The position numbers and the translations under genes were made by a program. Source: Myxococcus fulvus (lineage in GTDB: Bacteria; Myxococcota; Myxococcia; Myxococcales; Myxococcaceae). Taken from it: a stretch of DNA of 64,000 nt. The stretch covers positions 372,001-436,000 of the forward strand of contig NZ_FOIB01000008.1 of the NCBI RefSeq assembly GCF_900111765.1. Reading direction: 5' to 3'. Under the pieces are notes generated by a model. It did no database searches. It was not told where the DNA came from and saw only the letters and a list, made by a program, of their open reading frames with translations. Positions 8,931 to 35,691 of the stretch are shown one piece after another. Each line of letters begins with the position of its first letter. The first letter of the stretch is position 1.

Positions 8931-11831
8931 TCAGCCCGTGGCGCCGGGCTGCGCGGGCCTGGCTTCCGCCACGCGCTTGCCCACCCGGGCGCGCCGGGAC
9001 TTGCCCAGCACGTGCGCCAGGTAGCGGCCGGTGTGGCTGGCCTGCACCTTGGCCACGCTCTCCGGAGTGCCCACGGCCAGCACCTGGCCTCCGCCGGCGC
9101 CGCCCTCGGGGCCCATGTCGATGAGCCAGTCCGCGCTCTTGATGACATCCAGGTTGTGCTCGATGACGAGCACGCTGTTGCCGGCGGCCACCAGCCGGTT
9201 GAGCACGGACAACAGCTTGCGGATGTCCTCGAAGTGCAGGCCCGTGGTGGGCTCGTCCAGGATGTAGAGCGTGCGGCCCGTGGCCACGCGCGCCAATTCA
9301 CGCGCCAGCTTGATGCGCTGGGCCTCGCCGCCGGACAGGGTGGGGGAGGGCTGTCCCAGGCGGATGTAGCCCAGGCCCACGTCGCCCAGCGTCTGCAGCA
9401 CGCGCATGATGTCCTTGTGCGCGCCGAAGTGCTCCTGCGCCTCGCGCACGCTCATGTCGAGCGTCTCCGCGATGTTCTTGCCCTTGTAGCGCACGCGCAG
9501 CGTCGCCTCGTTGAAGCGCTTGCCGTTGCAGACCTCGCAGGGCACGTACACGTCCGCCAGGAAGTGCATCTCCACCAGCTTGACGCCGTCGCCCTCGCAT
9601 GACTCGCAGCGGCCGCCCTTGATGTTGAAGCTGAAGCGGCCCGGCCCGTAGCCGAACGCGCGGGCCTCCGGCGTCAGCGCGAACACCTCGCGGATGGCGT
9701 CGAACACCTTGGTGTACGTGGCGGGGTTGCTGCGCGGCGTGCGGCCGATGGGCCGCTGGTCGATGTCGATGACCTTGTCCAGGTGCTCGAAGCCCAGCAC
9801 CGCCTTGTGCTTCCCGGGCGACTCGCGGCTGTCGTACAGGTGCTTGGCCAGGGCGGGGTAGAGGATCTCGTTGATGAGCGTGGACTTGCCCGCGCCGGAC
9901 ACGCCGGTGACGGCGGTGAAGATGCCCAGCGGAATCACCGCGTCCACGTCCCGGAGGTTGTTCTCCTTCGCGCCTTGAATCACCAGCTGATGCTTGGGAT
10001 TGGGCGCGCGGCGCTCCTCGGGGATTTCAATCTCCAGCCGTCCGGAGAGGTAGCCGCCGGTGAGGCTGTTCTCGTCCGCCATCACCTGCTTGGGCGTGCC
10101 CTGCGACACCACCTGGCCGCCCAGCTCCCCCGCGCCCGGGCCGAAGTCCACCAGCCAGTCCGCGTCCTCCATCGTCTCCTCGTCGTGCTCCACGACGATG
10201 ACGGAGTTGCCCAAATCCCGCAGGCGCTTGAGCGTGGTGAGCAGCTTGCCGTTGTCACGCTGGTGCAGGCCGATGGAGGGCTCGTCCAGGATGTAGATGA
10301 CGCCCGTCAGCTCGCTGCCCATCTGCGACGCCAGCCGGATGCGCTGGCTCTCGCCGCCCGACAGCGTGGACGCGGTGCGGTCCAGCATCAGATAGCCCAG
10401 GCCCACGTCGACCAGGAACGACAGGCGGCTGCGAATCTCCTTCAGCAGTTCGGTGGCGATCTTCCGCTCGTGCTCGGACAGGGCCAGCGCGCCCAGGAAC
10501 GCGAGCGCGTCCGCGATGGTCAGCCGGCTCAGCTCGACGATCGAGTGCGCGTGGACCTTCACCGCGCGGCTCTCGGGGCGCAGGCGCTCGCCCTTGCAGG
10601 TGGGGCAGGGCTTGTTGCTGAAGTACTTCTGCAGCTCGGTGCGGCGGGCCTCGGACGTCGTCGTCTTGAAGTTGCGCATCATGCGCTCGACGAGCCCCTC
10701 CCACTCCATCTTGTACTTGCCGTTGTCGCCCCACTCGACGGTGAAGCTCTTGCCCTTGGCGCCGTTCATCAGCGTGTCGCGCTCGCGCTTCGACAGCTTC
10801 CCGTAGGGCACGTCCAGATCAATCTTGAACGCCTTGGACAGGCTCTCCACGAAGTCCGCCGTCCAGCCCTCGCCGCGGTTCATCCCGTTGGCCCAGGGTT
10901 CGATGGCGCCGTCGCGGATGCTGCGAGACGGGTCCGGCACGATGAGGTCCGGGTCCATCTCCGGCCGGGTGCCCAGGCCGTTGCAGTCCGTGCACATGCC
11001 CAGCGGGTTGTTGAAGGAGAACGACGCGGGCGTCAAATCCCCGAAGGAGATGCCGCAGGAGGGGCACGCGTTGAGCTCGCTCATCACCCGGTCCGCGCTC
11101 GCCGCGCCCGTCTCGTTGGTGATGATGAGCGTGCCCTTGCCCTCGCGCAGCGCGGTCTCCACCGAGTCCGTCAGCCGCGTCTTGATGTCCGCCTTGAGCA
11201 CCAGCCGGTCGATGACCAGCTCGATGTCGTGCTTGGACTTCTTGTCCAGCTCGATGCGCTCCTCCAGGCTCTTGAGCGCCCCGTCGATGCGCGCGCGGGA
11301 GAAGCCGCGCTTCTGCGCCTCGGTGAGCAGGTCTTTGTGCTCGCCCTTGCGGTTGGTCACCAGTGGCGCCAGCACCTGGAGCTTGCTGCCCGAGGGCATC
11401 TTCAGGATTTCGTCGACAATCTGCTGCGCGCTCTGCTTGCCGACCTTGCGGCCGCAGTTGGGGCAGTGCTGCACGCCGATGGAGGCGTAGAGCACGCGCA
11501 GGTAGTCGTGCACCTCGGTGACGGTGCCCACCGTCGAGCGGGGGTTGTTGCTGGCCGCCTTCTGCTCGATGGAGATGGTGGGCGACAGGCCCCGGATGGT
11601 GTCGTACTTGGGCTTCTCCATCTGCCCGAGGAACTGACGGGCGTAGGCGGAGAGGCTCTCGACGTAGCGGCGCTGGCCTTCCGCGTAGAGCGTGTCGAAG
11701 GCGAGCGAGCTCTTGCCGGAGCCGGAGACCCCCGTGAAGACGACGAGCTTCTTCTTGGGGATGTCCAGGGAGACGTTCTTGAGGTTGTGCTCCTTGGCGC
11801 CTCGGAGGGAGATGACGTCGGGCTCGGACAT
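8931..11831 (-). CDS. uvrA: Excinuclease ABC subunit UvrA
   Basis: 966 residues, close to the usual ~940. UvrA is the damage-scanning ATPase of nucleotide excision repair; it loads UvrB. Seen: first Walker [10 protein letters not shown] (K40), first signature [14 protein letters not shown], second Walker [10 protein letters not shown], second signature [25 protein letters not shown], and Cys pairs of the zinc modules ([40 protein letters not shown]). Start ATG 11831 ([11 protein letters not shown]) is where homology begins; there is no Shine-Dalgarno but a -10-like TAGATC 17 nt upstream, so the mRNA may be leaderless. The partner genes uvrB and uvrC are at 56.7-60.8 kb. Confidence 0.97.
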
Positions 11832-11842
11832 GATGGGCGGGC

Positions 11843-11867
11843 GATCTACCACTGAACAGGTGCTCCG
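11843..11867 (-). promoter_or_regulatory. uvrA promoter with LexA-like operator
   Basis: On the minus strand TGGTAGATC gives an extended -10 (hexamer 11848-11843). Directly upstream, 11867-11851 reads CGGAGCACCTGTTCAGT, which matches 14 of 17 positions of the myxobacterial LexA consensus as I remember it (CTRHAMRYBYGTTCAGS). A repressor here would occupy the promoter spacer. No convincing -35. Confidence 0.4.
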
Positions 11868-12013
11868 GTAGCTCAAAAAACCTGGAGAGGAGGGTGGATG
11901 GTCCTCAACGCGTGGCGTTGCGCTCCCACTCCCACCCGTGCCGGCCACCCGAGCGGGCGACCAGGGGCCGCTGGAGCCCCGCCCGGGTTTCCGATAGAGG
12001 GGCGCCTCCTCCT

Positions 12014-12919: not shown

Positions 12920-13194
12920 GGCGCTCGGGTGCCCAGGGCGGGCTGGTGGTTTGTCCCGACTGTCACCTGGCGTTCCTGAAGTAATTCCAGTCCCACCCGC
13001 CCCCAGGGAAACGTTCTTCCCACGGCGGAGAACCCCTTTTCCCAGCCACGCCCAAGAGTTGCCACGTTGGCCGGTGGACGTCTGGTGCCGCCGTGCGTCG
13101 GGCACCTGGGTTGCAACGCGCCCCCTCCGCCGGAATCGCGCGGGTGCGAGGCCGCGCGGAATCCGGGCTCGGGAGTCGTGGGGAGGCAGCAACG

Positions 13195-16140
13195 ATGAGA
13201 CGTCTGTTTTGGGTGGCGTGGGTGGCGGTGGCGTTGGTGGTGGGGACGGGGTGTGAGCGCCCGTCGTCCCAGCGGGCGAAGAGCGCCTTCGTGGTGCGCC
13301 CCGAGACCATCGACTTCGGCCCCGCCGCGCTGGGCCGCACCAAGAGCTTCAAGCTGAAGGTGACCAACGGCGGCCGCGCGTCCTACCGCGTGGAGGGCGC
13401 CAGCTCCACCATCCCCAACGTCACGGTGCCGCCGTTCGAGCCCTTCACGCTGGGGGCGGGCGCCGAGCGCGAAATCGAGGTGCACTTCAAGCCCGAGGTC
13501 GAGGGCACGGTGCAGGGCGCGCTGGAGCTCATCACGGACGCGGACGCCCAGGGGCAGGTGCCGGTGTCCGGCCGGGGCGTGAAGGCCTTCGTGGAGGTGC
13601 CGCTGACGGAGCTGGACTTCGGCAACGTGGCCATGGGCTTCGTGGAGATGCGCCAGGTGACGGTGAAGAACCCCTCCGACGTGGAGACGCCGCTGGCGGT
13701 GTCGGTGCAGGGTGCGGACCTGGACCAGTTCACCGCCGAGCACGGCGAGGCGCCCACGCTGGCGCCCGGCGAGGAGCGGGTGTTGTCGGTGGCCTTCGCG
13801 CCCCGGCGCCTGGGCGCGGCCGCGGCGGAGCTGCACATCGCCGTGTGCGAGGGCTGTGAGCCGGCGGTGGTGCCACTCAAGGGCATGGGCGTGGCGTCCA
13901 AGCTGGAGGTGACGCCGCTGCGGCTGGACTTCGGGCGCGTGGCGCTGGGGGCCAGCGCGGAGCAGTCCATCACCGTGCGCAACCAGGGCACCGAGTCCTT
14001 GCGCTGGTCCGGCGTGGAGCTGCAGCTCAACCCGGGCGGCGTGTACCGCGTGGTGAGCGAGCCCGTCCTCAGCGGCGGCCTGCTGGCCGCGGGCGCGAGC
14101 GTGGAGGTCCGCGTGGCCTTCACCCCCGTGGTGCTGGGGCGCGCGGGCGAGGGGCGCGTCGAGGTGGGCGTGCGCGAGCAGGGCTCCTCCGCGCCGGGCC
14201 CGAAGGTGTCGCTCACGGGCGAGGGCGGCACGTCGTGCGTGGCGGTGAAGCCGCGTGACCTGGACTTCGGCGTGGTGGCCGAGGGCATGACGGCGACGCG
14301 GCCGGTGGAGGTCATCAACCGCTGCCGCGACAGCGTGCTCGTCAACAACCTGAACCTGACGACGGCGCAGGGCGGCTACTTCACCCTGGCGCAGGCGCCG
14401 GCCAGCGTGACGGTGCCCGCGGGCCAGTCCGCCTTCGTGGGCATCACCTTCAGCCCGCGCGTGGGCGCGGCGGGCCGGAGCGAGGGGCAGCTCGCGGTGA
14501 GCGTGCGCGCGGGGAGCACCACGTCCACGGAGGGCGTGACGTTGAAGGGCGAGGGCCGCGCCTTCAAGCCGTGCCAGTACTCGCTGCCGCAGCAGCTGAA
14601 GTTCGGGAAGGTGCCGGTGGGCGCGGAGGTGGGGCTGGGGGTGACGTTGCGCAACACCGGCACGGAGGCGTGCTACCTGGCGTCCATGCAGCTGGTGGCG
14701 GGCTCCGACCCGTCCTTCCTCGCGCAGTCGGTGCCCAACCACGTGCTCGAGCCGGGCCAGAAGGCCACGCTGGTGGTGCGCTTCAAGCCGGAGGAGGAGG
14801 GGCCCTTCGAGGGGCTCGCGGAGGCATGGGTGAACCACCCGACGCTGGGCCACCCGCTGGTGTCGCTCGTGGGCGAGGGCGTGAAGGGCTGCTTCGCGCT
14901 GCAGCCGACGACGGTGGACTTCGGCGTCACCAAGCTGTCGTGTGGTCCTCGCACGCGGGAGTTGGTCGCCATCAACGAGTGCATCGGCCCGGTGAAGGTG
15001 GCCGGCATGACGCTGGAGCAGGCGGGCGAGGAGTTCTCGGTGCAGTCGGCGAGCGCCTTCCCGTCCTCGATTGCCGCGGGCGGCCGGGTGAAGCTGACGG
15101 CGCGCTACACGCCGACGGACGACGGCGACGACGCGGCGGCGGTGCGCTTCCGGCTGGAGGATGGGAGCGAGTACACGGCGGGCCTGTTGGGCCGGGGCGT
15201 GACGAAGGCGGAGCAGACGGACCGCTTCTTCCAGGAGTCGAAGGCGAAGGTGGACGTGCTCTTCGTGGTGGATAACTCGGGCTCGATGATGGAGGAGCAG
15301 CAGAGTCTGGGGCAGAACTTCGCGGCCTTCCTGAGCGCGGCGAGCGCGGCGGCGGTGGACTACCGCATCGGCGTCACCACGACGGGCCTGGATGAGTCCC
15401 CGGGCGGCTGGTCCGAGTGCCCGGGCGGCGCGCAGGGCGGGGAGAACGGGCGCCTGTTCCCGGTGGACGGCTCGCGCCCCCGCATCATCACGCCGGACAC
15501 GCCCAACGCGGCCGCGGTGTTCGCGGACAACACCCGCGTGGGCGTGTGTCATTGGAACGAGCAGGGCCTGGACGCGGCGCACCGCGCCCTGTCGGACCCG
15601 CTGCTCTACAACCTGGATGACACCCGCACGCCGCTGCCCAACGACGGCAACGGCGGGTTCCTGCGCGAGGACGCGAAGCTGGCCATCATCTTCCTGTCGG
15701 ACGAGGAGGACTTCAGCTCGCAGCCGGTGTCCTTCTACGAGACGTACTTCCTGGCGCTGAAGGGCAACGACAAGGCGAAGCTCAGCATCAACGCGATTGT
15801 CGGCCCCATGGACCTGGCCACCTGCCCCACGTCGAGCAGCGCCGGCAGCCGCTACATCCAGCTGGCGAACACGACGGGCGGCGTGGTGGAGAGCATCTGC
15901 ACGCCCAACTGGGCCGCGTCCCTGGAGAAGCTCTCCAACAGCGCCTTCGGCCCCAACCGCAAGTTCCCCCTGTCCGAGGAGCCCGCGGACACCACGCGCA
16001 TCGTCGTCCACGTGGACGGCGTGCAGGTGCTGTCGGGCTGGGAGTACGACGCGCGCACCAACAGCATCATCTTCGACCGGGACTCCGCTCCCGCGCCGGG
16101 CTCGCTGGTGGAGGTGACGTACCCGCTGGGCTGCAACTAG
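13195..16140 (+). CDS. Large lipoprotein with ASH-type repeats and a von Willebrand A domain
   Basis: 981 residues from ATG 13195 with GGAGG upstream. Signal peptide with lipobox VVGTGC, so lipid-anchored. Residues ~30-660 hold about six Ig-like repeats of ~100 residues, each opening with a LDFG-V-G pattern and carrying a GGRASYR/NNPS-like loop and G-E-G/G-R-G-V end (ASH, also called choice-of-anchor D). Then a von Willebrand A domain with MIDAS motif DNSGSMM (D693), typical of adhesion or metal-dependent protein binding; the region KLAIIFLSDEEDF fits its fourth strand. The C-terminal ~60 residues form a further beta domain (VHVDGVQVLSGWEYD). Inference: a surface or periplasmic adhesion or scaffold protein. 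Monocistronic; hairpin follows at 16168. Confidence 0.85.
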   Translation: MRRLFWVAWVAVALVVGTGCERPSSQRAKSAFVVRPETIDFGPAALGRTKSFKLKVTNGGRASYRVEGASSTIPNVTVPPFEPFTLGAGAEREIEVHFKPEVEGTVQGALELITDADAQGQVPVSGRGVKAFVEVPLTELDFGNVAMGFVEMRQVTVKNPSDVETPLAVSVQGADLDQFTAEHGEAPTLAPGEERVLSVAFAPRRLGAAAAELHIAVCEGCEPAVVPLKGMGVASKLEVTPLRLDFGRVALGASAEQSITVRNQGTESLRWSGVELQLNPGGVYRVVSEPVLSGGLLAAGASVEVRVAFTPVVLGRAGEGRVEVGVREQGSSAPGPKVSLTGEGGTSCVAVKPRDLDFGVVAEGMTATRPVEVINRCRDSVLVNNLNLTTAQGGYFTLAQAPASVTVPAGQSAFVGITFSPRVGAAGRSEGQLAVSVRAGSTTSTEGVTLKGEGRAFKPCQYSLPQQLKFGKVPVGAEVGLGVTLRNTGTEACYLASMQLVAGSDPSFLAQSVPNHVLEPGQKATLVVRFKPEEEGPFEGLAEAWVNHPTLGHPLVSLVGEGVKGCFALQPTTVDFGVTKLSCGPRTRELVAINECIGPVKVAGMTLEQAGEEFSVQSASAFPSSIAAGGRVKLTARYTPTDDGDDAAAVRFRLEDGSEYTAGLLGRGVTKAEQTDRFFQESKAKVDVLFVVDNSGSMMEEQQSLGQNFAAFLSAASAAAVDYRIGVTTTGLDESPGGWSECPGGAQGGENGRLFPVDGSRPRIITPDTPNAAAVFADNTRVGVCHWNEQGLDAAHRALSDPLLYNLDDTRTPLPNDGNGGFLREDAKLAIIFLSDEEDFSSQPVSFYETYFLALKGNDKAKLSINAIVGPMDLATCPTSSSAGSRYIQLANTTGGVVESICTPNWAASLEKLSNSAFGPNRKFPLSEEPADTTRIVVHVDGVQVLSGWEYDARTNSIIFDRDSAPAPGSLVEVTYPLGCN

Positions 16141-16167: not shown

Positions 16168-16200
16168 GCGCCGCGCTTCTCTTCTTGAGGGGCGCGGCGC
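16168..16200 (+). terminator. Hairpin terminator between convergent genes
   Basis: GCGCCGCGC (16168-16176) pairs with GCGCGGCGC (16192-16200), loop 15 nt. It is 28 nt after the lipoprotein stop and 15 nt from the stop of the small minus-strand gene, so it may serve both. Confidence 0.55.
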
Positions 16201-16214
16201 TCCGCGTTCCAGGA

Positions 16215-16565
16215 CTACGCGTTGGTCGTTCCCGTGGGGTCGCTGTGCACGGAGGGCGCCGAGCTCGTGGGCGAGTCATCGGGCGCGCTGGGATCGCTTT
16301 CGGGGCGCGCCATCCTGAAGATGCGCCCGATGACGCCTTGGACGAGGCTGAACACCCGCGAGAGGCCGCCACGCTCCGGGTCCGCGGCGCGAGTGCTGGC
16401 GTTGTCGTGGGTCGCCTTCGCCGACGCGGGGCGCTCGAAGGTCGAGCCGTCGCCCGGCGCGAGGGGCCTTGCGCGCGAGGGCGCCTGGTGCATGGGGGCT
16501 CGTGGCGGCTCGCGGAGCGTGGACCTTCGCGCGGTCAGGGACGACAGGCGGATGGGGGGCGACAC
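16215..16565 (-). CDS. Small unrecognised protein downstream of the kinase
   Basis: 116 residues from GTG 16565, which has GGAGG five bases upstream; an internal ATG at 16493 gives 92 residues. Codon third positions are over 90% G or C, as in true genes here, while first and second positions are mixed, supporting real coding. The protein is Ser/Pro/Ala/Thr rich and probably disordered except for one amphipathic segment near residues 66-85 (GGLSRVFSLVQGVIGRIFRM). No signal peptide and no known family recognised. It begins 34 nt after the kinase stop, in the same direction, so it may be the third gene of the sigma factor-kinase operon. It could also be a non-coding 3' region. Confidence 0.5.
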   Translation of the reverse strand: MSPPIRLSSLTARRSTLREPPRAPMHQAPSRARPLAPGDGSTFERPASAKATHDNASTRAADPERGGLSRVFSLVQGVIGRIFRMARPESDPSAPDDSPTSSAPSVHSDPTGTTNA

Positions 16566-16599
16566 GGCGACCTCCAGGCTCGAGGCTTCGGGGGTTGAG

Positions 16600-19599
<3,000 letters not shown>

Positions 19600-19603
19600 G
19601 GCC

Positions 19604-20395
19604 TCAGCGCAGAAGGTTCCGCACGCTCAACTCGAGCCCGCTCAGCAGCGTGCGGGCCAGGCTGTCCAGCTCCTCCGGGTCGTGGACCTGGAGTCGTCGT
19701 CGCAGCTCCTCGTGCGTGCGCTCGGTGAGGGTGTCCCGGGCGGCCTTGAGCCAGCGGGTCATGGTGGCGCGGCTGACGCCATGCAGCCGGCCGATGTCCT
19801 CCACGCCCACGTCCTCCACGAGGTGCAGTCGCAGGAAGGCGCGCTCGCGAGGCTCCATCGAGGCGAGCGCCGCGGCGATGGCGGCCTCGACGTCCGGGTG
19901 GTGTCGGTGCTTCAGCGCGGCGAAGGAGGCCTCCTGCACGGGCAGGAGCGCATCCCCCAGCGCGACCGGGTGGGCCGCGCGCTCCCGCAGCTCGGTGAGC
20001 GCCAGCCTCAGGGCCACGGTGCGGACCCAGGCCTCGAGGGGCCCGCGGCCGTCGTATTCGGCGAGGCGGGGTGGGGCGCCTTCGCGCGGGAGGAGCAGGC
20101 GCTCACGCAGCCGCTGCATCGCCTCGTCGACGACGTCGGGGGCCATGCGCCGTCGCGCCAGCGCTTGCCGGGCGGCGGGGAGCAGGCGGCGCTCGAAGAG
20201 GACGAGCGCCGCGGGAAGGCCGCGCGCGCAGGCGCAGGCGAGGTAGAGGTCCTCGACGTGACACGCCGTGGAGGAGGGGGCTTCGCCGTGGCGCGCGCGC
20301 AGGTGGGCGAGGAAGACGTCCCGTTCGAGCACCACGCCGGGCCAGGCGGAGCTGGCTCGGTGGAACAGGTCCTCGTCGGGGCGCGGCGGCTCCAT
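19604..20395 (-). CDS. RNA polymerase sigma-70-family factor (myxobacterial ECF-like type)
   Basis: 263 residues. An unusually long N-terminal part, then a region-2-like helix set (DLYLACACARGLPAALVLFERRLL split by DVVDEAMQRLRERL), GPLEAWVRTVALRLALTELR as the end of region 2, and region 4 (MEPRERAFLRLHL, then the helix-turn-helix VEDIGRLHGVSRATMTRWL). Region 1 and the long region 3 of housekeeping factors are absent. Start ATG 20395 is preferred over the upstream TTG 20413 because TACACT lies 15 nt upstream as a -10, which would put the TTG outside the transcript. The next gene four bases on encodes the zinc-finger kinase, its likely regulator. Confidence 0.85.
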   Translation of the reverse strand: MEPPRPDEDLFHRASSAWPGVVLERDVFLAHLRARHGEAPSSTACHVEDLYLACACARGLPAALVLFERRLLPAARQALARRRMAPDVVDEAMQRLRERLLLPREGAPPRLAEYDGRGPLEAWVRTVALRLALTELRERAAHPVALGDALLPVQEASFAALKHRHHPDVEAAIAAALASMEPRERAFLRLHLVEDVGVEDIGRLHGVSRATMTRWLKAARDTLTERTHEELRRRLQVHDPEELDSLARTLLSGLELSVRNLLR

Positions 20396-20404
20396 GCCTG
20401 GGGG

Positions 20405-20410
20405 AGTGTA
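20405..20410 (-). promoter_or_regulatory. -10-like element of the sigma factor gene
   Basis: TACACT 15 nt before ATG 20395, so the transcript would begin only a few bases before the start codon. No Shine-Dalgarno is present. No clear -35. Confidence 0.35.
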
Positions 20411-20456
20411 CAACGCGTGCCTCCGGTTCGCGGTCGAGGGGCTCGAGGTGCTGGCC

Positions 20457-21929
20457 CTACGAGGATGAGGAGGGGGTGGCCGGAGAGACGCCGGGCGGCG
20501 GGTGGATGGCGGTGGCGAAGCCCCCGGCGTGGTGTTCGGCGAGGAAGCGCGAGAGCTGCTCCGGGGTCAGCTCGCGGCAGGTGCTGGACGGGTCGTGGAC
20601 GATGAAGTTGCCCTCGGGCGTCATGCCCGTCACGGCGATCCAATGGCCGCCGGAGAAGTTGCCGGAGGCATTGGGGGGCTGCTCGTTGGCGAGCATGACG
20701 CTGCTCTCGCCGTTGACCGCGACGAGGTTGCCGGCGGCGAGCTGCTGCTGGATCCAGCGCACGTCGGAGCCCGCGTGGGTCTCCGAGGTGAGGCCCATGT
20801 TCGCGGCCATCTGCTCGATGCCGACGTAGCCGGTGCCCTCGGCGCCCATGCCGATGGAGTTGGCGAGCTGGTTGATGAAGGCTCCATCGGAGAGCCCTCC
20901 GCCGAAGCCATAGCCCTGGAGGATCATGGCCAGGGTGGTCGGGCCGCAGTTGGAGTTGCGGTTCCAGTCGTCCTCGGTGCCCTCGGAGGTGATCTGGTTG
21001 ATGTAGGGCACGGGGTACATCTCCCCGGGGGCGGTGGGCGGCGTGGCGCCCGGGGCCGAGGGGGCCACGCTTCCAGGCGAGGACGGAGTGCCCTGGGACG
21101 AGGGAGCCACGGTCCCGGGAGAGGACGGGGGCGAGGGGACGGTCAGCGTGCTGCCGGCGATGATGAGGTCGGGGTTCTCCAGGCCGTTGAGCTGGACGAC
21201 CTGCCGCGCGATCTCCTCCACGGGCCCGGGGACGCCCTGCTGCATCAGGCTCCTCGCGATGTCGCCCACGGTGTCTCCGGGCTGCACGTGCCAGCTCGTG
21301 GTGTCGGAGGTCTGGGGAGACGCGGGCACCAGGTCCTCGAGCGCCTCGGCGACGCGCGCGCCCTGCTCGCGAAGCGCGTGCATGCGGAGGGCGTCCTGGA
21401 ACTGCTCCTCCGATCCGGTGCCGTGTGCCTCCGTGAGGGCCTCGCGCAGGGCGTGCTCACGGAGTGCCGCGCTGGCCTCGTCGAGACGCCCGTCGCGGCG
21501 AGCGTCCATGAGGGCCTCGCGCAGGGCGTGCTCACGGAGCGCCGAGCCGACGTCCTCGAGACGCGTGTCGCGGCGAGCATCCGTGAGAGCCTCGCGCTGG
21601 CCACGCTCGCGGAGTGCCGCGCTGGCCTCGTCGAGGCGCCCGTCGCGCCGTGCTTCCTGGAGGGACTTCTTCAGGGCGTGCTCACGGAGCCTGGCGGACG
21701 CATCCTCGATTCGTCCGTCCTGGTGCGCAGCGCACGCCGGGGACTGTCGGTGCTCGTCACGGACCTCCTTCCTGGGAGCAGGGCCCCGCGCATCGAAGGA
21801 ATCGGGGCGGGCGCGCGACGGCGCATTCCCGGGAGGGCTCGGAGTGACAGGGCGGCGCGGGGCCGGCTCGGAGGACGGCTGGCGCACGGAACGGGCGAGC
21901 TGGGACTGAAAGAGAGAGCGGAGGGTCAT
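20457..21929 (-). CDS. LysM domain protein with C39-like cysteine peptidase domain and 25-residue repeats
   Basis: 490 residues, start ATG 21929. Residues 1-65 are basic and disordered; 66-191 are five 25-residue repeats with consensus DARRDGRLDEASAALREHALREALT, likely a charged helical rod; ~202-250 is a LysM peptidoglycan-binding domain (WHVQPGDTVGDIA, GSTLTVP); ~255-300 a Ser/Pro/Gly linker; ~305-470 a peptidase fold with NCGPTTLAMIL (Cys328), GGHWIAVTG (His429) and VHDPSS (Asp446), the Cys-His-Asp triad of C39-like peptidases. No Sec signal peptide is visible, so export may use another route or lysis. Inference: cleaves peptides, possibly in cell walls or of prey or rivals; a toxin-like role is possible. 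Single gene. Confidence 0.82.
   Translation of the reverse strand: MTLRSLFQSQLARSVRQPSSEPAPRRPVTPSPPGNAPSRARPDSFDARGPAPRKEVRDEHRQSPACAAHQDGRIEDASARLREHALKKSLQEARRDGRLDEASAALRERGQREALTDARRDTRLEDVGSALREHALREALMDARRDGRLDEASAALREHALREALTEAHGTGSEEQFQDALRMHALREQGARVAEALEDLVPASPQTSDTTSWHVQPGDTVGDIARSLMQQGVPGPVEEIARQVVQLNGLENPDLIIAGSTLTVPSPPSSPGTVAPSSQGTPSSPGSVAPSAPGATPPTAPGEMYPVPYINQITSEGTEDDWNRNSNCGPTTLAMILQGYGFGGGLSDGAFINQLANSIGMGAEGTGYVGIEQMAANMGLTSETHAGSDVRWIQQQLAAGNLVAVNGESSVMLANEQPPNASGNFSGGHWIAVTGMTPEGNFIVHDPSSTCRELTPEQLSRFLAEHHAGGFATAIHPPPGVSPATPSSSS
21357..21734 (-). repeat. Five imperfect 75-bp tandem repeats inside the peptidase gene
   Basis: Each unit encodes 25 residues (repeats at residues ~66-91, 92-116, 117-141, 142-166, 167-191). 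The middle three are most alike at DNA level (for example GCGCAGGGCGTGCTCACGGA recurs), so copy number could change by recombination. Confidence 0.8.
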
Positions 21930-22278
21930 TGCGTGCTCGGTGAGAGGGTTTGAATGGTTTGTCGATAAGATGCGAATATTTGTTTCGTGCCCGGATACGG
22001 TTCTTCCGCGCCTCCCCAATGAAATACCCAGAGGGGAAAGGCCTGGGGTTCCAGGGGGTTGGAAGAATCGTCGGAAACAATGAGCCACTAATTCGCCGGG
22101 CTGCGTCTCTCTTCGAGAACGCCCCTGTGAAACGATGATTGTGATTGTTATTGCGTCCGACGCCCGTCCCTCCAGTCCTCCGCGTACGAGCCGAAGTGTG
22201 GCTTTTCTGTCAGCCCTCGGTCCCATGGGGCGGGGATGACTCGACAGGGTGGATGAGCGGGTGCAGCCTTTGGGGGTG
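21930..22278. other. 349-nt divergent intergenic region, lower G+C
   Basis: Holds the promoters of the peptidase (minus) and phosphoesterase (plus) genes. It is markedly richer in A+T than the surroundings (for example 21950-22000 and 22130-22155). A dyad CCTGG-ggtt-CCAGG lies at 22042-22055. I find no convincing -10/-35 pair, RNA gene or small coding frame; the open frames here lack the G/C third-position bias. Confidence 0.5.
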
Positions 22279-23190
22279 ATGCCGGAGCCCCTCCTGGTTG
22301 CCGCCCTGGGTGACGTCCACGGTCGCTTCCACCGCGTGGAGACGTGGTTGGACGCGCTGGAGCAGTCGCGTGGTCGGCCGGTGGCGATGGTGCTCGCGGT
22401 GGGGGACGTGGAGGCGTTCCGCCGCGCGGATGACCATCGTCGCAAGGCCGCCAAGCGCACCATGCCCGCCGAGTTCGCCGAGTACGCGGACGGCGTCCGC
22501 CGCGTGAAGCGGCCCCTGTACTTCATCGGCGGCAACAACGAGGACTTCGAGGCGCTGCACGACTTCCAGGACGGGGGCGAGCTGGCGCCGGGCGTCACCT
22601 ACCTGGGCCGCGCCGGCGTGCGCGAACTCTCGGGACTGCGCGTGGGCTACCTGTCCGGCATCCACGCGCCGCGCTTCATCGACCAGCCCTTGAAGCGCCC
22701 CGTCACACAGGACCTGATGAAGCAGGCGGGCTACTTCCGCACCGCGGAGGTGGAGCGGGTGATGTCGCTTCGGGACGTGGACCTGATGCTCGTGCACGAG
22801 TGGCCCCGAGGCATCGTCCAGCGCGCGCGGGAGGAGAACCCCTCGCCGCCCCGGCCCTTGCCCTCGTACTGGATTGGCAATGGCGTGACGCGCCGCCTGG
22901 TGGACACGGTGCAGCCGAAGTGGCTGTTGTGTGGACACTCGCACAAGGCCTTCGCGGTGACGCTGGAGGGCGTGGGCCGCCCCGCCACGCGCATCGCCTG
23001 TCTGGACCAGGCCACGCGCCCCGAGGAGTCCGTCTTCTGGCTGGAGTACGAGGGCCGCGCCGTCGTGCGTGCCGGCTGGGGCGTCTCCGGCGCCGTCGCC
23101 TGGGAGCCGGGGTGGCGGTGGGATTTGTCCCGGCTGCCCGTCGTGGAGGGAGGGCACGACGGCGACGACGCTCCCGTGGGCGTGATGTAG
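22279..23190 (+). CDS. Calcineurin-like metallophosphoesterase related to lariat debranching enzyme DBR1
   Basis: 303 residues from ATG 22279 (a G-rich stretch just upstream; GTG 22249 is an alternative). Metal-site motifs in order: GDVHG (D12, H14), VGDVEAFRR (D43), FIGGNNE (N86, N87), LMLVHEWPRGI (H173), LLCGHSH (H220, H222). Beyond the general fold, the spacing and wording follow eukaryotic DBR1: GD-x-x-A-x-R, FIGGN-x-E, APGVTYLGRAGV, the LSGI turn and the HEWPRGI/HDWPR motif, which plain phosphatases lack. DBR1 hydrolyses 2'-5' branches. Two departures: Asp at position 12, where DBR1 has Cys, suggesting a two-metal site, and Asn87 in place of the general-acid His of GNHE. Function in this organism is unknown; single gene, convergent with the next with six bases between. 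Confidence 0.8.
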   Translation: MPEPLLVAALGDVHGRFHRVETWLDALEQSRGRPVAMVLAVGDVEAFRRADDHRRKAAKRTMPAEFAEYADGVRRVKRPLYFIGGNNEDFEALHDFQDGGELAPGVTYLGRAGVRELSGLRVGYLSGIHAPRFIDQPLKRPVTQDLMKQAGYFRTAEVERVMSLRDVDLMLVHEWPRGIVQRAREENPSPPRPLPSYWIGNGVTRRLVDTVQPKWLLCGHSHKAFAVTLEGVGRPATRIACLDQATRPEESVFWLEYEGRAVVRAGWGVSGAVAWEPGWRWDLSRLPVVEGGHDGDDAPVGVM

Positions 23191-23196
23191 CCCGGC

Positions 23197-24423
23197 TCAG
23201 GGCTGGCCGGGCTCCCAGTGTTCGAGCAGCACGTCCGCGCCCGGTGCGAGCAGGGCGCTGGCGGACGGAGGCGGCGCGTTGGGCCGCACGAGCCTGCGTC
23301 GCACGTTGGCGTCCAGGAACCTGCGCGTCAGGTCCGTGGCCGTGGCCCAGCCCCGGGCCACCGCCTGCGCCGTCTCCGACGACACCACTCCTGGCGCCAG
23401 CGTGGCGGCGGCGCCCACGCTGGTGAAGCCCACGTGCCGCATGCCGGGGATGCGAATCATCCACCGATGCGCGCCGCGCAAAGACTCGAGCATCTCGAAG
23501 TCGGGCACCACCACGGCGTCGTCCTCCTGGAACAGGTGCAGCAGGGGGACCTGGACCCGCTCCGGGTGGAAGTCCGGCAGGCCCTTCAACCATTCCTTTC
23601 CGCGCCGGGTCGCGATGCCTCCATCCAGGCTCACCAGCGCGCCCGCCTCGGGATGCGCGAGCGCGAAGAGGAAGGCCGCGCGAGCACCCAGGCTGTGCCC
23701 GACCACGGCGACGCGCGAGGTGTCGATGCGGGCATCCGCGCGGAGGAAGTGCAGCGCGCGCTCCAGCTCCCGCGCCTGCCGTCTCGCGGTGGCGAGCACG
23801 TCGACGAGCGGCCCTGGCGGCTCTGCGCGAGTGGGCGAGGGCGTGGTGGCCACCACGTAGCCGTGGCTCGCCAGGTACTCGGCCAGCACGGCCTGATGGT
23901 GGGCGGAGTGATGACGGCCCTGCGCCACCAGCACGAGCGGGAAGCGTCCCGGCGCGGGCGGCGCGTGGGGCGTGGCCGTCATCGGCGCGTCGAGCCACGC
24001 GGCGGTGCTCTCCTCGGGCACGCCCAGGTCGACGAGTTGCTGCTCGTAGAGGGTGACGGCCTGGGTGGCGCGCGCCTCGTCGCGAGGCGTCTCGGGTTCG
24101 GACTCGAAGCCCATGAGGCCCACGTAGTCGCGATAGTGCAGGCGGGTCGCCGCGTCGCTCTCCCGCGTCGGGTACCAGACCGTGAGCTGGAGCGCCAAGG
24201 GGTCCTCCGGCGTGGCGGGAATGGCTTGCACGCGCAGCCCGACGCTCCAATGCCCCGCCTCCACCGGCCCCCAGATGGGCGGCGGGGTGACGAAGGGTTG
24301 GGGCGGCACGAGCAGGTAGCTGGGCGCGAAGCGGCTCGCGGAGTTGCAGCCGGCGACGAGCACCAGCGCCAGCGCGCCCGCGCGCCACGCCCGCCCGAGA
24401 CCTCCGCGGATGGCGGCCCTCAG
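23197..24423 (-). CDS. Lipoprotein alpha/beta hydrolase (PAF-acetylhydrolase/dienelactone-hydrolase type)
   Basis: About 408 residues. Mature part: nucleophile elbow VVGHSLGARA (Ser in GHSLG), an earlier YVVATTPSPTRAEPPG strand, DGGIATRRG, an EDDAVV acid region and a late GMRHVGFTS His. N-terminal lipobox ALVLVAGC after Arg-rich residues, so exported and lipid-anchored. Between the preceding in-frame stop-free shadow and the lipobox there is no ATG, TTG or usable GTG. The best start is CTG 24423, which overlaps the TGA of the PAP2 gene as CTGA; the only GTG lies inside the signal peptide core. Inference: coupled translation from a rare CTG start. Substrate unknown; the family cleaves short esters or phospholipid acetyl groups. 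Confidence 0.75.
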   Translation of the reverse strand: MRAAIRGGLGRAWRAGALALVLVAGCNSASRFAPSYLLVPPQPFVTPPPIWGPVEAGHWSVGLRVQAIPATPEDPLALQLTVWYPTRESDAATRLHYRDYVGLMGFESEPETPRDEARATQAVTLYEQQLVDLGVPEESTAAWLDAPMTATPHAPPAPGRFPLVLVAQGRHHSAHHQAVLAEYLASHGYVVATTPSPTRAEPPGPLVDVLATARRQARELERALHFLRADARIDTSRVAVVGHSLGARAAFLFALAHPEAGALVSLDGGIATRRGKEWLKGLPDFHPERVQVPLLHLFQEDDAVVVPDFEMLESLRGAHRWMIRIPGMRHVGFTSVGAAATLAPGVVSSETAQAVARGWATATDLTRRFLDANVRRRLVRPNAPPPSASALLAPGADVLLEHWEPGQP

Positions 24424-32256: not shown

Positions 32257-32435
32257 CGCGCACCCGCTCCAGGGCTGAATTGCCACCCGGAAGCTCCAGG
32301 GCTTCTGGGTAAGCCGGTCATGGAGGTCCGGTTCGCGGGCCAACCATGGGAAACAGGTGGGCAGGCAGGCGGGCTCACGAACACACTGGGCGCGGAGTGA
32401 GGAATGGAGCATGAAAGCGACCCGTCCGGTCGTTC

Positions 32436-32441
32436 TAGACT
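32436..32441 (+). promoter_or_regulatory. -10-like element of the addB-like gene
   Basis: TAGACT lies 16 nt before ATG 32452. There is no Shine-Dalgarno before that ATG, so a leaderless transcript is suggested. No convincing -35. Confidence 0.35.
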
Positions 32442-32451
32442 CCACGCATCC

Positions 32452-35400
32452 ATGGCCCGTCCCGTCCGTACCCTCCATGTGTTCCCCGACGCCAGCCGGC
32501 GTCAGGCCGCGTTGCGCGCGGAAGGGAACGCTCGGGGGCTGGCGGTGGGGCGGGATTTGCTCACCTGGGAGGAGCTGCTCGTCGCGCTGGGCGGGGCTCG
32601 CGAGCTGAACCGGCGCCCCTGTCCCGCGGTGCTGGCGCGCGCGGTGATGTCCTCGCTGGGGCCGCAGTTGGGCAACACGCACTTCGGCGAGTACGTCCGG
32701 GAGCCGGCCTTCGCGCGCGCGGGGCTGGAGGTGGTGCTGGACCTGAAGGCCGGGCGCCTGTCGCCCCGGGAGCTCCAGGACGCGGTGGAGGTCCTCCCGC
32801 CCGAGCGGCAGAAGCACGTGCGGGTGCTCGCCCGGCTGTATCACCTGTACGAGCAGAAGCTGGCGGAGCTGGGGCTCGCGGACCGCGAGGACGTGCTGCG
32901 CGGGGCTCGTGAGGCGCTGGGCCAGGGCGTGTGGCCGGTGAGCTGGGATGGCGTGGGGACGCTCGTGCTGCACGGGGTCTACGACGTGCGCCCGTCCGGC
33001 CTGGAGCTGCTGCTGGCGTTGGCGGCGGCGTGTGAGTCGCGACGCGTGACGCTCCGGGTGGAGACGCCCGTGGGCGGCTCGCCGGTGGCGGACGCGGCGC
33101 TGGCCTCGCTGTTCCGGGCCTTCGAGAACCGCGGCGAGTCCATGCCGCACGTGGACCTCTTCAAGGCGGACGTCACCTTCGAGTCCCGGCCGTTCATCGA
33201 CCTGGGTCGCTTCGCCTTCTCGCCCCGGGCGCCGCGCAATGCGCTCGAGGACGCGAAGACCCAGCCTCGCGTGTGGAGCGCGGCCACGGCGCGCGAGGAG
33301 GCGCGACTGGTGGCCAGGGACGTGCGCCGGCTCATCGCGGAAGGGGCCGCGCCGTCGGACATCGCGATTGCATACCGTGAGCTGGGCGCGGAGGCGGGGT
33401 GGCTCGCCGAGTCGCTCGGTGAGCTGGGCGTGCCGGTGCGGTTGCCCTGGGGCGAGCCACTCTCGCTGGCCGGGCCGGTGCGTCTGGCATTGGACCTGCC
33501 GCTGCTGGTGGAGGACGGCTTCCCCGCCGAGCGCGTGGCGGAGCTGGTGGGCAGTCGCTACGCGCACATCCTGTCGCGCGGAGGTCCGGAGTCGCCCGCG
33601 AGCCTCTTCGCGCTGGCCGCCGTGCGGGACGACCGACTGGGCGCGCTGCGAGGCCGTGGTGCGTACGACGTGCGCCTCGAGGGCCTCGCGCGTCGGCTCC
33701 AGGCGCTCCAGGGTGCACAGAAGAAGGACGGCAGCGCGCGCATCCAGTCGGTGCGGGTGCTGCGTGAGCGCTGCGGTCTGTTGCTGGATTACTGCCGACG
33801 CATCCCCGAGAAGGCACCCGTCGCCGAGCAGCTGGCCGCGTGGTGGCACGTGGTGGAGCGGCTGGGACTGATGGACTCCGAGGGGCCGCTGGAGTCGCGC
33901 GCGGAAGGTGGACTGGCGGAGCGGGCGCTGGACGCGCGGTCGCGTGACGAGGCCGCGCGTGAGGCGCTGCGGCAGCGCGTCCAGGGACTGCTGCGGACGA
34001 TGAAGGCGGTGGGCGGAGGCCCGGTGCTGCGCCGGCGCACGTTCGGTCGATGGCTGCGCGACGCGATGTCGGAGGCGTACCTGCCCGCGCGAGGCCCCCG
34101 GGGCGCGGCGGTGGAGGTGCTGGAGGCGGCGGAGGTGCCCGGACGCTCCTTCCGTCACCTCTTCATCGCGGGGCTCACCGAGGGACGCTTCCCGGGACGG
34201 GATGTGCCCTCGCCACTGCTCGCGGACGCGGAGCGCTCGGCGCTCAATCAGCACCTGGGCCGTGATGTGTTCCGGCTGACGGGCGGTGAGTTCGAGGACC
34301 GCGCGGCGTGGCGGCTCACCGAGGACCGCCTGCTGTTCGCCAGCGCGCTCGCCGCGGCGGAGGAGACGCTGAGCCTGTCCTTCGCGGTGGAGGGGGCGGG
34401 CGGACAGGAGCAGGTGCCGTCCTCGTTCCTGGAGGAGGTGCGTCGGCTCACCGCGCTGAAGTGGACGCCGCGCTCGTTGCCGCCCATCCCTCCGTTGGAC
34501 GAGGTGCTCACCGAGTCGGAGCTGCGGCGCTGCGTGGCGCTCGAGGTCCTCTCGTATCCGAAGCTGCGCGTCACCGAGCCGGACGCCGCGGCGCCGCTGC
34601 TCAAGCGCCACTTCGACCGCGAGGCCTGGTACTCGGGCGCGCGCGAGCTGTCCTTGGTCGAGGTGGAGCGGCTGTACTTCTTCGGCGACCCGAAGATGAA
34701 GCCCGGGAAGTACACGGGCTCGGTGGATGCCAACACGATGCGCGCGTCGCTGCGCGAGGCCTTCCGCTTCGACCTCACGCGACCGTTGTCCGCGTCCGCG
34801 CTCGCGCGCTTCGGCAACTGCGGCTTCCAGGGCTTCCTCACGTACGGCCTGAAGGTGACGGAGCCGGACCGTCCGGGCGAGGAGTTCGACGCGCGCGGGC
34901 GCGGCACCTTCTGGCACCGTGTCGTGGAGGAGGTCTTCCAGTCGCTCAAGCAGCACCAGTTGCTGGGCAAGGCGCCGGAGGAGATTCCCGAGGAGGTGCT
35001 GGACTCCGCGCTCCAGTCCGCGGTGGCGCACTTCGAGAAGTTCCACCACGTGGGGCATCCCGCGCTGTGGAAGCTGGCGCACGAGCGCGCTCGGGCGATG
35101 GCGCGTCGCATCCTGGTGGACGAGCGGCGCGGGCTGCCCTTCGAGCGGATGGTGCCGGAGGGCTTCGAGCTCCAGTTCGGCCCCGCCGCCGAGGACGACC
35201 GGTGGCGCCACGTCATGTTGCCCATCGACGGGGACGCCATCGTCTTCGAGGGGAAGATCGACCGGCTCGACGTGTCCGGCTCGGAGGTGGGCGTCATCGA
35301 CTACAAGTCCGGGCGCCTGGACAAGAACGAGCTGAAGAAGCGGCTGCTCACGTCCGACTTCCAACTGCCGCTGTACCTCTTCGCCGCGCGGGAGAGTGGC

Positions 35401-35691
35401 CACCAGAACGCGAGCCAGGCCGCGTGGTTCTCGCTGCGCACGGGCAACACCATCCACCTGTCGGAGGTGGTCCCCGCGCAGGAGCTGGACGAGCTGTTGT
35501 CCACGGACCCCGAAGTGCGCGCGAAGGTGGCGGAGAAGGAAGGCGGGCGCAACCTGCCCAACGCCGTGGAGTCGCTGGTGCGCACGCTTCGCGAGGGCCA
35601 GTTCGCCGCGCGGCCCCAGGACTGTGGCTCCTGCGGGTTCCGCGCCGTGTGCCGCATCACCGAGCGACGGATGACGGAGGAGGGGAGTTGA
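32452..35691 (+). CDS. addB: AddB-like helicase/Fe-S nuclease subunit
   Basis: 1079 residues from ATG 32452 (an in-frame ATG at 32404 has a crowded GAGGA and is the alternative). The N-terminal ~700 residues have the layout of an inactivated helicase (VFPDASRR, LLTWEELL, AYRELGAEAGWLAESL) without a Walker A, as in AddB. The C-terminus is a PD-(D/E)XK nuclease: FWHRVVEEVF, then D937 in FEGKIDRLD and D950/K952 in VIDYKSG, followed by DFQLPLYL. Four cysteines, C790 (FGNCGFQGF) and C1058-x2-C1061-x5-C1067 (CGSCGFRAVC), match the Fe-S cluster of AddB. With the next gene it should form a double-strand-break end-processing complex that feeds RecA. TTGA overlap with the AddA-like gene. Confidence 0.85.
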   Translation: MARPVRTLHVFPDASRRQAALRAEGNARGLAVGRDLLTWEELLVALGGARELNRRPCPAVLARAVMSSLGPQLGNTHFGEYVREPAFARAGLEVVLDLKAGRLSPRELQDAVEVLPPERQKHVRVLARLYHLYEQKLAELGLADREDVLRGAREALGQGVWPVSWDGVGTLVLHGVYDVRPSGLELLLALAAACESRRVTLRVETPVGGSPVADAALASLFRAFENRGESMPHVDLFKADVTFESRPFIDLGRFAFSPRAPRNALEDAKTQPRVWSAATAREEARLVARDVRRLIAEGAAPSDIAIAYRELGAEAGWLAESLGELGVPVRLPWGEPLSLAGPVRLALDLPLLVEDGFPAERVAELVGSRYAHILSRGGPESPASLFALAAVRDDRLGALRGRGAYDVRLEGLARRLQALQGAQKKDGSARIQSVRVLRERCGLLLDYCRRIPEKAPVAEQLAAWWHVVERLGLMDSEGPLESRAEGGLAERALDARSRDEAAREALRQRVQGLLRTMKAVGGGPVLRRRTFGRWLRDAMSEAYLPARGPRGAAVEVLEAAEVPGRSFRHLFIAGLTEGRFPGRDVPSPLLADAERSALNQHLGRDVFRLTGGEFEDRAAWRLTEDRLLFASALAAAEETLSLSFAVEGAGGQEQVPSSFLEEVRRLTALKWTPRSLPPIPPLDEVLTESELRRCVALEVLSYPKLRVTEPDAAAPLLKRHFDREAWYSGARELSLVEVERLYFFGDPKMKPGKYTGSVDANTMRASLREAFRFDLTRPLSASALARFGNCGFQGFLTYGLKVTEPDRPGEEFDARGRGTFWHRVVEEVFQSLKQHQLLGKAPEEIPEEVLDSALQSAVAHFEKFHHVGHPALWKLAHERARAMARRILVDERRGLPFERMVPEGFELQFGPAAEDDRWRHVMLPIDGDAIVFEGKIDRLDVSGSEVGVIDYKSGRLDKNELKKRLLTSDFQLPLYLFAARESGHQNASQAAWFSLRTGNTIHLSEVVPAQELDELLSTDPEVRAKVAEKEGGRNLPNAVESLVRTLREGQFAARPQDCGSCGFRAVCRITERRMTEEGS

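Follow-up and report, generated by a model that had tools for sequence, protein, structure and literature searches.

A Dbr1-clade metallophosphoesterase with a variant active site in Myxococcus fulvus and other Myxococcota

The window analysed here, a stretch of 64,000 nucleotides from one contig of Myxococcus fulvus, encodes a protein of the known Dbr1 clade that has a variant active site. In human cells, Dbr1 opens the lariats of introns. Several of the pieces with which Dbr1 reads and cuts a branch appear to be missing from the window protein, judging from the changed counterparts of His91, of Tyr64, and of the loop contacts, yet the two-metal site looks complete, since all seven metal ligands are kept. 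The protein defines a subfamily, hereafter A, that has so far been seen in Myxococcota only. A probably does a different job from Dbr1, because its active site is rebuilt and the gene is kept in some bacteria that show no sign of a retron.

The Gene and Its Kinship to Dbr1

The open reading frame of A in the window is intact from ATG to TAG and encodes 303 amino acids:

22279..23190, plus strand: gene for the family A Dbr1-clade metallophosphoesterase, 303 aa and stop (assigned from sequence, genome survey, profile, and predicted fold)

All the motifs named in the initial annotation of this gene are present in the product, namely GDVEAFR (42-48), FIGGNNE (82-88), and APGVTYLGRAGV (103-114), followed in the later half by LSGI (125-128) and HEWPRGI (173-179); the numbering of Asp12 and Asn87 given there is correct. 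Pfam places the protein in the calcineurin-like metallophosphoesterases (PF00149, 44.4 bits against a curated cut-off of 21.5) and returns phosphoesterase models only, with no additional domain. No NCBIfam model matches the protein above its cut-off, and the YfcE family (TIGR00040) scores 11.9 bits against a curated cut-off of 56.25, which is below membership. A promoter and terminator scan of positions 21900-23300 found neither.

The label "DBR1-like" of the initial annotation is borne out by both sequence and predicted fold. When the single sequence is compared with PDB sequences by phmmer, Entamoeba Dbr1 is matched at E 1.7e-20 (76.8 bits) and CWF19L1 at E 3e-10; the list below E 1 is completed by a glycosyl hydrolase that is unrelated (0.28), and membership of another phosphoesterase family was rejected on this basis. 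A profile built from 15 family members, the kind of search that the annotation had proposed, puts Dbr1 far ahead (1.5e-27), followed by CWF19L1 (1.3e-11) and then LpxH (0.38), with Pfam giving the generic metallophosphoesterase. The structural comparison with Entamoeba Dbr1, also proposed there, points the same way. When the AlphaFold model of the window protein (pLDDT 91.7, pTM 0.90) is aligned with the top 995 chains from Foldseek, it matches Dbr1 with Z 29.9 over 250 residues at 2.3 Å, CWF19L1 is second (Z 23.8), and the next family follows at Z 18.1. These results support assignment to the Dbr1 clade, not to Dbr1 itself.

The window protein shares with Entamoeba histolytica Dbr1 (PDB 4PEH, 5K77) the metallophosphoesterase domain, the motif order GGNxE, YLG, SGI, HxWPxG, GHxH, and a segment of the length of the recognition loop together with the Arg that anchors this loop. 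It differs in having Asp for Cys14, Asn for His91, Arg for Tyr64, and altered loop contacts, and it has no separate C-terminal domain (262-354 in Entamoeba). The Entamoeba enzyme is described as requiring its C-terminal domain in vivo, along with the recognition loop at 130-158 (PMC4176325); the disordered C-terminal domain of human Dbr1 is described as dispensable for activity (PMC10470207). The window protein ends about 41 residues past the Dbr1-aligned part, and residues 295-303 of its model are of low confidence.

The second-best match in both sequence and fold is the N-terminal domain of CWF19L1/Drn1, the sister of Dbr1. In these proteins a noncatalytic N-terminal domain is followed by C-terminal domains, a layout that is not matched by a protein of 303 aa with phosphoesterase Pfam models alone and complete metal ligands. 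The CWF19L1 chain is far longer, at 538 residues, and Drn1 is described as noncatalytic (PMC10470207), whereas the window protein retains every metal ligand. Searches of open-licence PMC papers showed none on a bacterial Dbr1 relative; in the excerpts of PMC4569894, PMC6022877, and PMC7642983, which deal with bacteria or phages, "Dbr1-like" merely names a superfamily member.

Residues of the Active Site

Alignment with Dbr1 locates the following features in the gene:

22312..22320, plus strand: codons of D12-V13-H14, the first metal-site motif, with Asp where Dbr1 has Cys14
22456..22458, plus strand: codon of R60, aligned with Dbr1 Tyr64, which stacks on the branch adenine (role of Tyr64, PMC4176325)
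22531..22542, plus strand: codons of G85-N86-N87-E88, the equivalent of GNHE, with Asn87 in place of the general acid His
22654..22740, plus strand: codons of S126-R154, 29 aa, the length of the Dbr1 lariat recognition loop 130-158, with R154 as the anchoring Arg (loop definition, PMC4176325)
22795..22812, plus strand: codons of H173-E-W-P-R177-G178, with metal ligand H173 and invariant R177
22933..22944, plus strand: codons of G219-H220-S221-H222, the last metal ligands

Residues were compared in 106 sequences, obtained from 132 fetched proteins and Entamoeba Dbr1 after removal of 6 same-genome duplicates and 21 identical strings. Family A contributes 62 distinct sequences, a few of which are the same gene read from two alternative starts (L034 and L112, for example). 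All 62 keep the seven metal ligands (D12, H14, D43, N86, H173, H220, and H222) and the Arg177 that follows the HEWP motif. Asp12 stands at the position of Cys14 in 62/62, in agreement with the initial annotation, which had read this replacement as giving a full two-metal site. Cys14 is called invariant in Dbr1 (PMC4176325), and among the 106 aligned sequences a Cys at this position occurs in Entamoeba Dbr1 alone.

In Entamoeba Dbr1, His91 is described as positioned to protonate the 2'-oxygen, and the branch adenine as sandwiched by Tyr64 and His16 (PMC4176325). The GNHE motif is stated to be essential for debranching (PMC9606315). Every one of the 62 A sequences has Asn87 as the counterpart of the general acid His91 and Arg60 as the counterpart of Tyr64. 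The loop segment S126-R154 keeps the Dbr1 length and, in 62/62, the Arg158 counterpart R154; the contacts Lys134, Phe136, and Phe155 are changed, with Ala130 for Lys134 and Gly151 for Phe155 throughout the 62. The earlier caution that the activity may be altered is well founded.

Beyond A and Entamoeba Dbr1, the alignment holds 43 bacterial, archaeal, and phage sequences, and position 91 is His in 42 of them (B, 20/20; cyanobacteria, 4/4; actinomycetes, 7/7; group C, 6/6). The sole exception is a Halorubrum lacusprofundi plasmid metallophosphoesterase (L069:4905-5543), which has GNNE but also Asn at the later ligand His180 and is a separate case of an altered site. The A gene is under purifying selection, with dN/dS values of 0.09, 0.21, and 0.23 against three relatives.

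Phylogenetic Distribution

Among 195 Myxococcota genomes, some of them incomplete (G141, 82%) and each scored for at most 12 candidates for A and B and 8 for reverse transcriptases (RTs), 76 have a match to the window protein and 71 carry A (at least 51% identity). The difference is made up by G004, G013, G059, G165, and G193, whose matches reach 26-31% identity only. A second gene, B, with 33-39% identity to the window protein, is found in 30 of the 195. In one complete genome, the A gene (G118:C1:5535150-5536051) matches as two overlapping pieces, suggestive of a frameshift close to the 3' end. Another genome has a B match with one in-frame TGA (G127:C1:12590187-12590996), possibly a decaying copy.

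When 84,980 species genomes were scanned with a joint alignment of A, B, and Dbr1, at least 61 loci were returned, a lower bound because the scan used a single short, narrow peptide pattern. Four of these loci are from cyanobacteria, seven from actinomycetes, one from a planctomycete, and one from an unplaced bacterium; the other 48 bear myxobacterial or delta-proteobacterial titles, one Comamonas excepted. The latter, L088 (BNCN01000003.1), is titled Comamonas sp. KCTC 72670 and contains a family A gene beside members of the neighbour clusters of Myxococcus loci. This title is probably wrong, since the neighbours come from the same clusters as those of the Myxococcus loci.

A forms one clade, composed of Myxococcota rows only, in two trees (support 100/99 and 100/100). 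Entamoeba Dbr1, whose branch is very long, is placed beside a cyanobacterial sequence in both (97/47 and 86/56). An alternative tree joining Dbr1 to A is not rejected (p-AU 0.177), with one Dbr1 domain sampled. The pairing of A with actinomycete sequences receives 98/94 in one tree but merely 77/46 in the other.

A viral origin of A was rejected: a scan of viral contigs gave 48 pattern matches and 0 relatives, and the sole phage-collection record matched, Rhodococcus phage Grayson, falls outside A in the tree. The Grayson protein (L070:3001-3732), annotated as hypothetical, is a remote relative (27% identity) and is encoded in a region with genes for an RtcB RNA ligase, a tRNA, a phosphoribosyl pyrophosphate transferase, and a nicotinate phosphoribosyltransferase.

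Genomic Context

Three genes of the window recur around A in other genomes:

8931..11948, minus strand: uvrA (assigned by Pfam for the window gene); in 4/31 A loci, a gene of the uvrA cluster adjoins A in divergent orientation
13093..16140, plus strand: ORF for an ASH/HYDIN-domain protein, lipoprotein-like; in G117, a near relative, it is the gene immediately upstream of A
32404..35691, plus strand: PD-(D/E)XK (addB-like) gene, with homologues in the vicinity of A in L033, L035, L037, L041, and L047

In G117, the ASH/HYDIN-domain gene, the usual upstream neighbour of A, is followed by A after 192 bp. About 6 kb (~16199-22188) separate the two genes in the window, and this segment is missing there in G117, whose best match to the segment's kinase gene is 70% over ~840 bases. 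The segment holds three minus-strand reading frames: a kinase-TPR gene at 16600-19599, a second ORF at 19604-20413, and a third, LysM-like one from 20457. The loci with a divergent uvrA-cluster gene are L033, L035, L043, and L132; the divergent A loci L120, L121, L126, and L130 have different neighbours. In G155, A overlaps the recJ stop by 4 bp, a coupling found in one genome only. DBR1 is described as opening msDNA in vitro, after which RecJ degrades it (PMC8989520), and the A-recJ pairing recalls this assay; G155 itself has no RVT_1 match.

This context hints that A acts at nucleic-acid ends. The DNA-repair genes that adjoin A in some members are also compatible with A having turned into a 3'-5' phosphodiesterase or nuclease, in which the smaller Asn would relieve a clash between a 2'-OH and His91. 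Entamoeba Dbr1 is described as rejecting 3'-5' links partly through displacement of His91 by the neighbouring 2'-OH (PMC4176325). However, cleavage of 3'-5' links would be expected to profit from the very acid that A is missing, and Pfam gives a phosphoesterase with no extra domain; we consider this conversion unlikely.

A Second Family with the GNHE Motif

The window's genome carries both A and B, the latter at G000:C7:593528-594289 (L002, L057). A strain of M. xanthus likewise carries the two genes (L085 and L092). B is 36% identical to the window protein, belongs to the same clade, and likewise has Asp at the Cys14 position, but it retains GNHE (20/20) and the counterpart of Tyr64 (17/20), and A has neither. 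B also scores above A against Dbr1, in sequence (112.8 versus 76.8 bits) and in fold (Z 32.3 versus 29.9); the fold value for B comes from a model of its M. xanthus representative (L085, pLDDT 92.8). On these sequence and model comparisons, B is a better candidate than A for a bacterial 2'-5' debranching enzyme. Its cyanobacterial relatives have at most 37% identity to Entamoeba Dbr1.

Among the 14 B loci L048-L061, 7 have as the next gene on the same strand a member of the cluster that includes a DbpA-type DEAD-box RNA helicase (Pfam on one member). B-type loci also include L072-L085. A tie between B and group II introns was considered but not borne out: of 8 genomes whose relatives are B-like or actinomycete, 4 have the group II maturase domain PF08388, including 2 of 4 cyanobacteria, and the domain is absent from the window's genome. 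PADLOC gives one weak match for B, PDC-S10 (E 2.4e-5).

B is a possible partner for A, should A be catalytically dead and serve as a binding partner or scaffold in the manner of eukaryotic Drn1/CWF19L1. Replacement of the general acid in all members of A would fit such a role, as would the rank of CWF19L1, described as noncatalytic (PMC10470207), as second-best fold (Z 23.8) and the occurrence of B in 30/195 genomes. However, seven metal ligands invariant in 62/62 sequences are unexpected for a dead site, and no B match turned up in 41 of the 71 genomes with A; we consider the scaffold role improbable.

Co-occurrence with Retron Reverse Transcriptases

The initial annotation had proposed that the protein debranches msDNA and had looked to co-occurrence with retrons as a check. 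Four retron-type RTs (RVT_1) are encoded in the window's genome, all on other contigs than the window. Their best PADLOC matches are RT_XIII (three) and RT_other (one), and the 486-aa RT among the genome's proteins is one that we take to be of the Mx162 type. Rfam returned nothing at gathering threshold at the four RT loci, so msr RNAs are not confirmed there. An operon of A with a retron or defence gene was rejected, given RTs on other contigs and PADLOC matches of A to 0 families at E 0.001.

Mx162-type RTs were called at E 1e-30 or better against the 486-aa RT. Across the 195 genomes, 62 have A and the RT, 9 have A alone, 17 have the RT alone, and 107 have neither (Fisher p 3e-25). Within family f1, to which G060-G154, in 26 genera, appear to belong, the corresponding counts are 62, 8, 8, and 18 (p 8e-8). 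The co-occurrence is thus strong by genome, but by genus it reaches only p 0.047 (9, 4, 3, and 10), and kinship is ignored throughout these tests. Of the nine that have A alone, four encode another RVT_1 protein, and the other five (G060, G091, G140, G141, and G155) give no RVT_1 match at E 0.001. In our reading, shared ancestry fits the association better than a functional tie, because an RVT_1 match is missing from 5 of the 71 genomes with A, and A from 17 of those with the RT. The best explanation is that A is not tied to retrons and is widespread in family f1; within the core genera, a tie may still hold.

Debranching of 2'-5' links by A, in msDNA or in other branched nucleic acids, would have to proceed by metal catalysis alone. 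Such an activity would be in keeping with the Dbr1-clade sequence and fold, the segment of recognition-loop length with its anchoring Arg, the four RTs of the same genome, the Mx162-type RT in 62/71 A genomes (p 3e-25), and the action of DBR1 on msDNA ahead of RecJ (PMC8989520), given the overlap of A with recJ in G155. It is distinctly unlikely when set against the changed counterparts of His91, Tyr64, Phe155, and Lys134 in 62/62 sequences, the stated need for GNHE (PMC9606315), the five A genomes with no RVT_1 match, recJ-coupled G155 included, and the 17 RT genomes with no A. The proposal of an msDNA debranching enzyme is not supported: in 62/62 sequences, other residues stand in for the general acid, for the Tyr that stacks on the branch, and for the Dbr1-specific Cys, and 9 of 71 A genomes have no Mx162-type RT. 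Debranching of msDNA by A is unlikely.

Proposed Function

The reading that we favour, tentatively and with a little less than even confidence, is that A is a functional hydrolase with two metals, in which the Dbr1 fold has been turned to a phosphate-rich substrate, and that it is not tied to retrons. A metal-bound water would attack the phosphorus, as in Dbr1. The general acid being absent, the leaving group would not be protonated and would have to be one that needs no proton. The substrate might be a nucleotide or nucleic acid with a phosphoanhydride or another phosphate-rich end, and its phosphate may be held by Arg60 and Arg177, which the alignment would place close to the metals.

LpxH (UDP-2,3-diacylglucosamine hydrolase) is an active metallophosphoesterase that splits a pyrophosphate and has Arg at the catalytic His position, where A has Asn. 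This residue, Arg80, is described as binding the beta-phosphate of the pyrophosphate substrate (PMC5016852). LpxH has its own helical insertion domain, and its fold is remotely similar to that of A. Loss of the general acid could also just reduce the activity of A. In a scheme that divides the work between the two families, B would be a true prokaryotic debranching enzyme near the source of eukaryotic Dbr1, and A would act as a 5'-end deblocker, removing, for example, an adenylate or an RNA branch and letting RecJ-type exonucleases act; we regard this scheme as a long shot.

Implications

Dbr1 has been called central to eukaryotic RNA metabolism (PMC4176325) and is described as the sole known enzyme that selectively hydrolyses the 2'-5' link of lariats (PMC10470207). 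Bacterial relatives with the Dbr1 layout make the origin of the eukaryotic enzyme a testable question, and they do the same for bacterial debranching of msDNA or group II intron lariats. A is a natural experiment in which the Dbr1 fold has had its acid and its branch-binding residue swapped, and it is chiefly of interest for this change of active site and for pointing to B.
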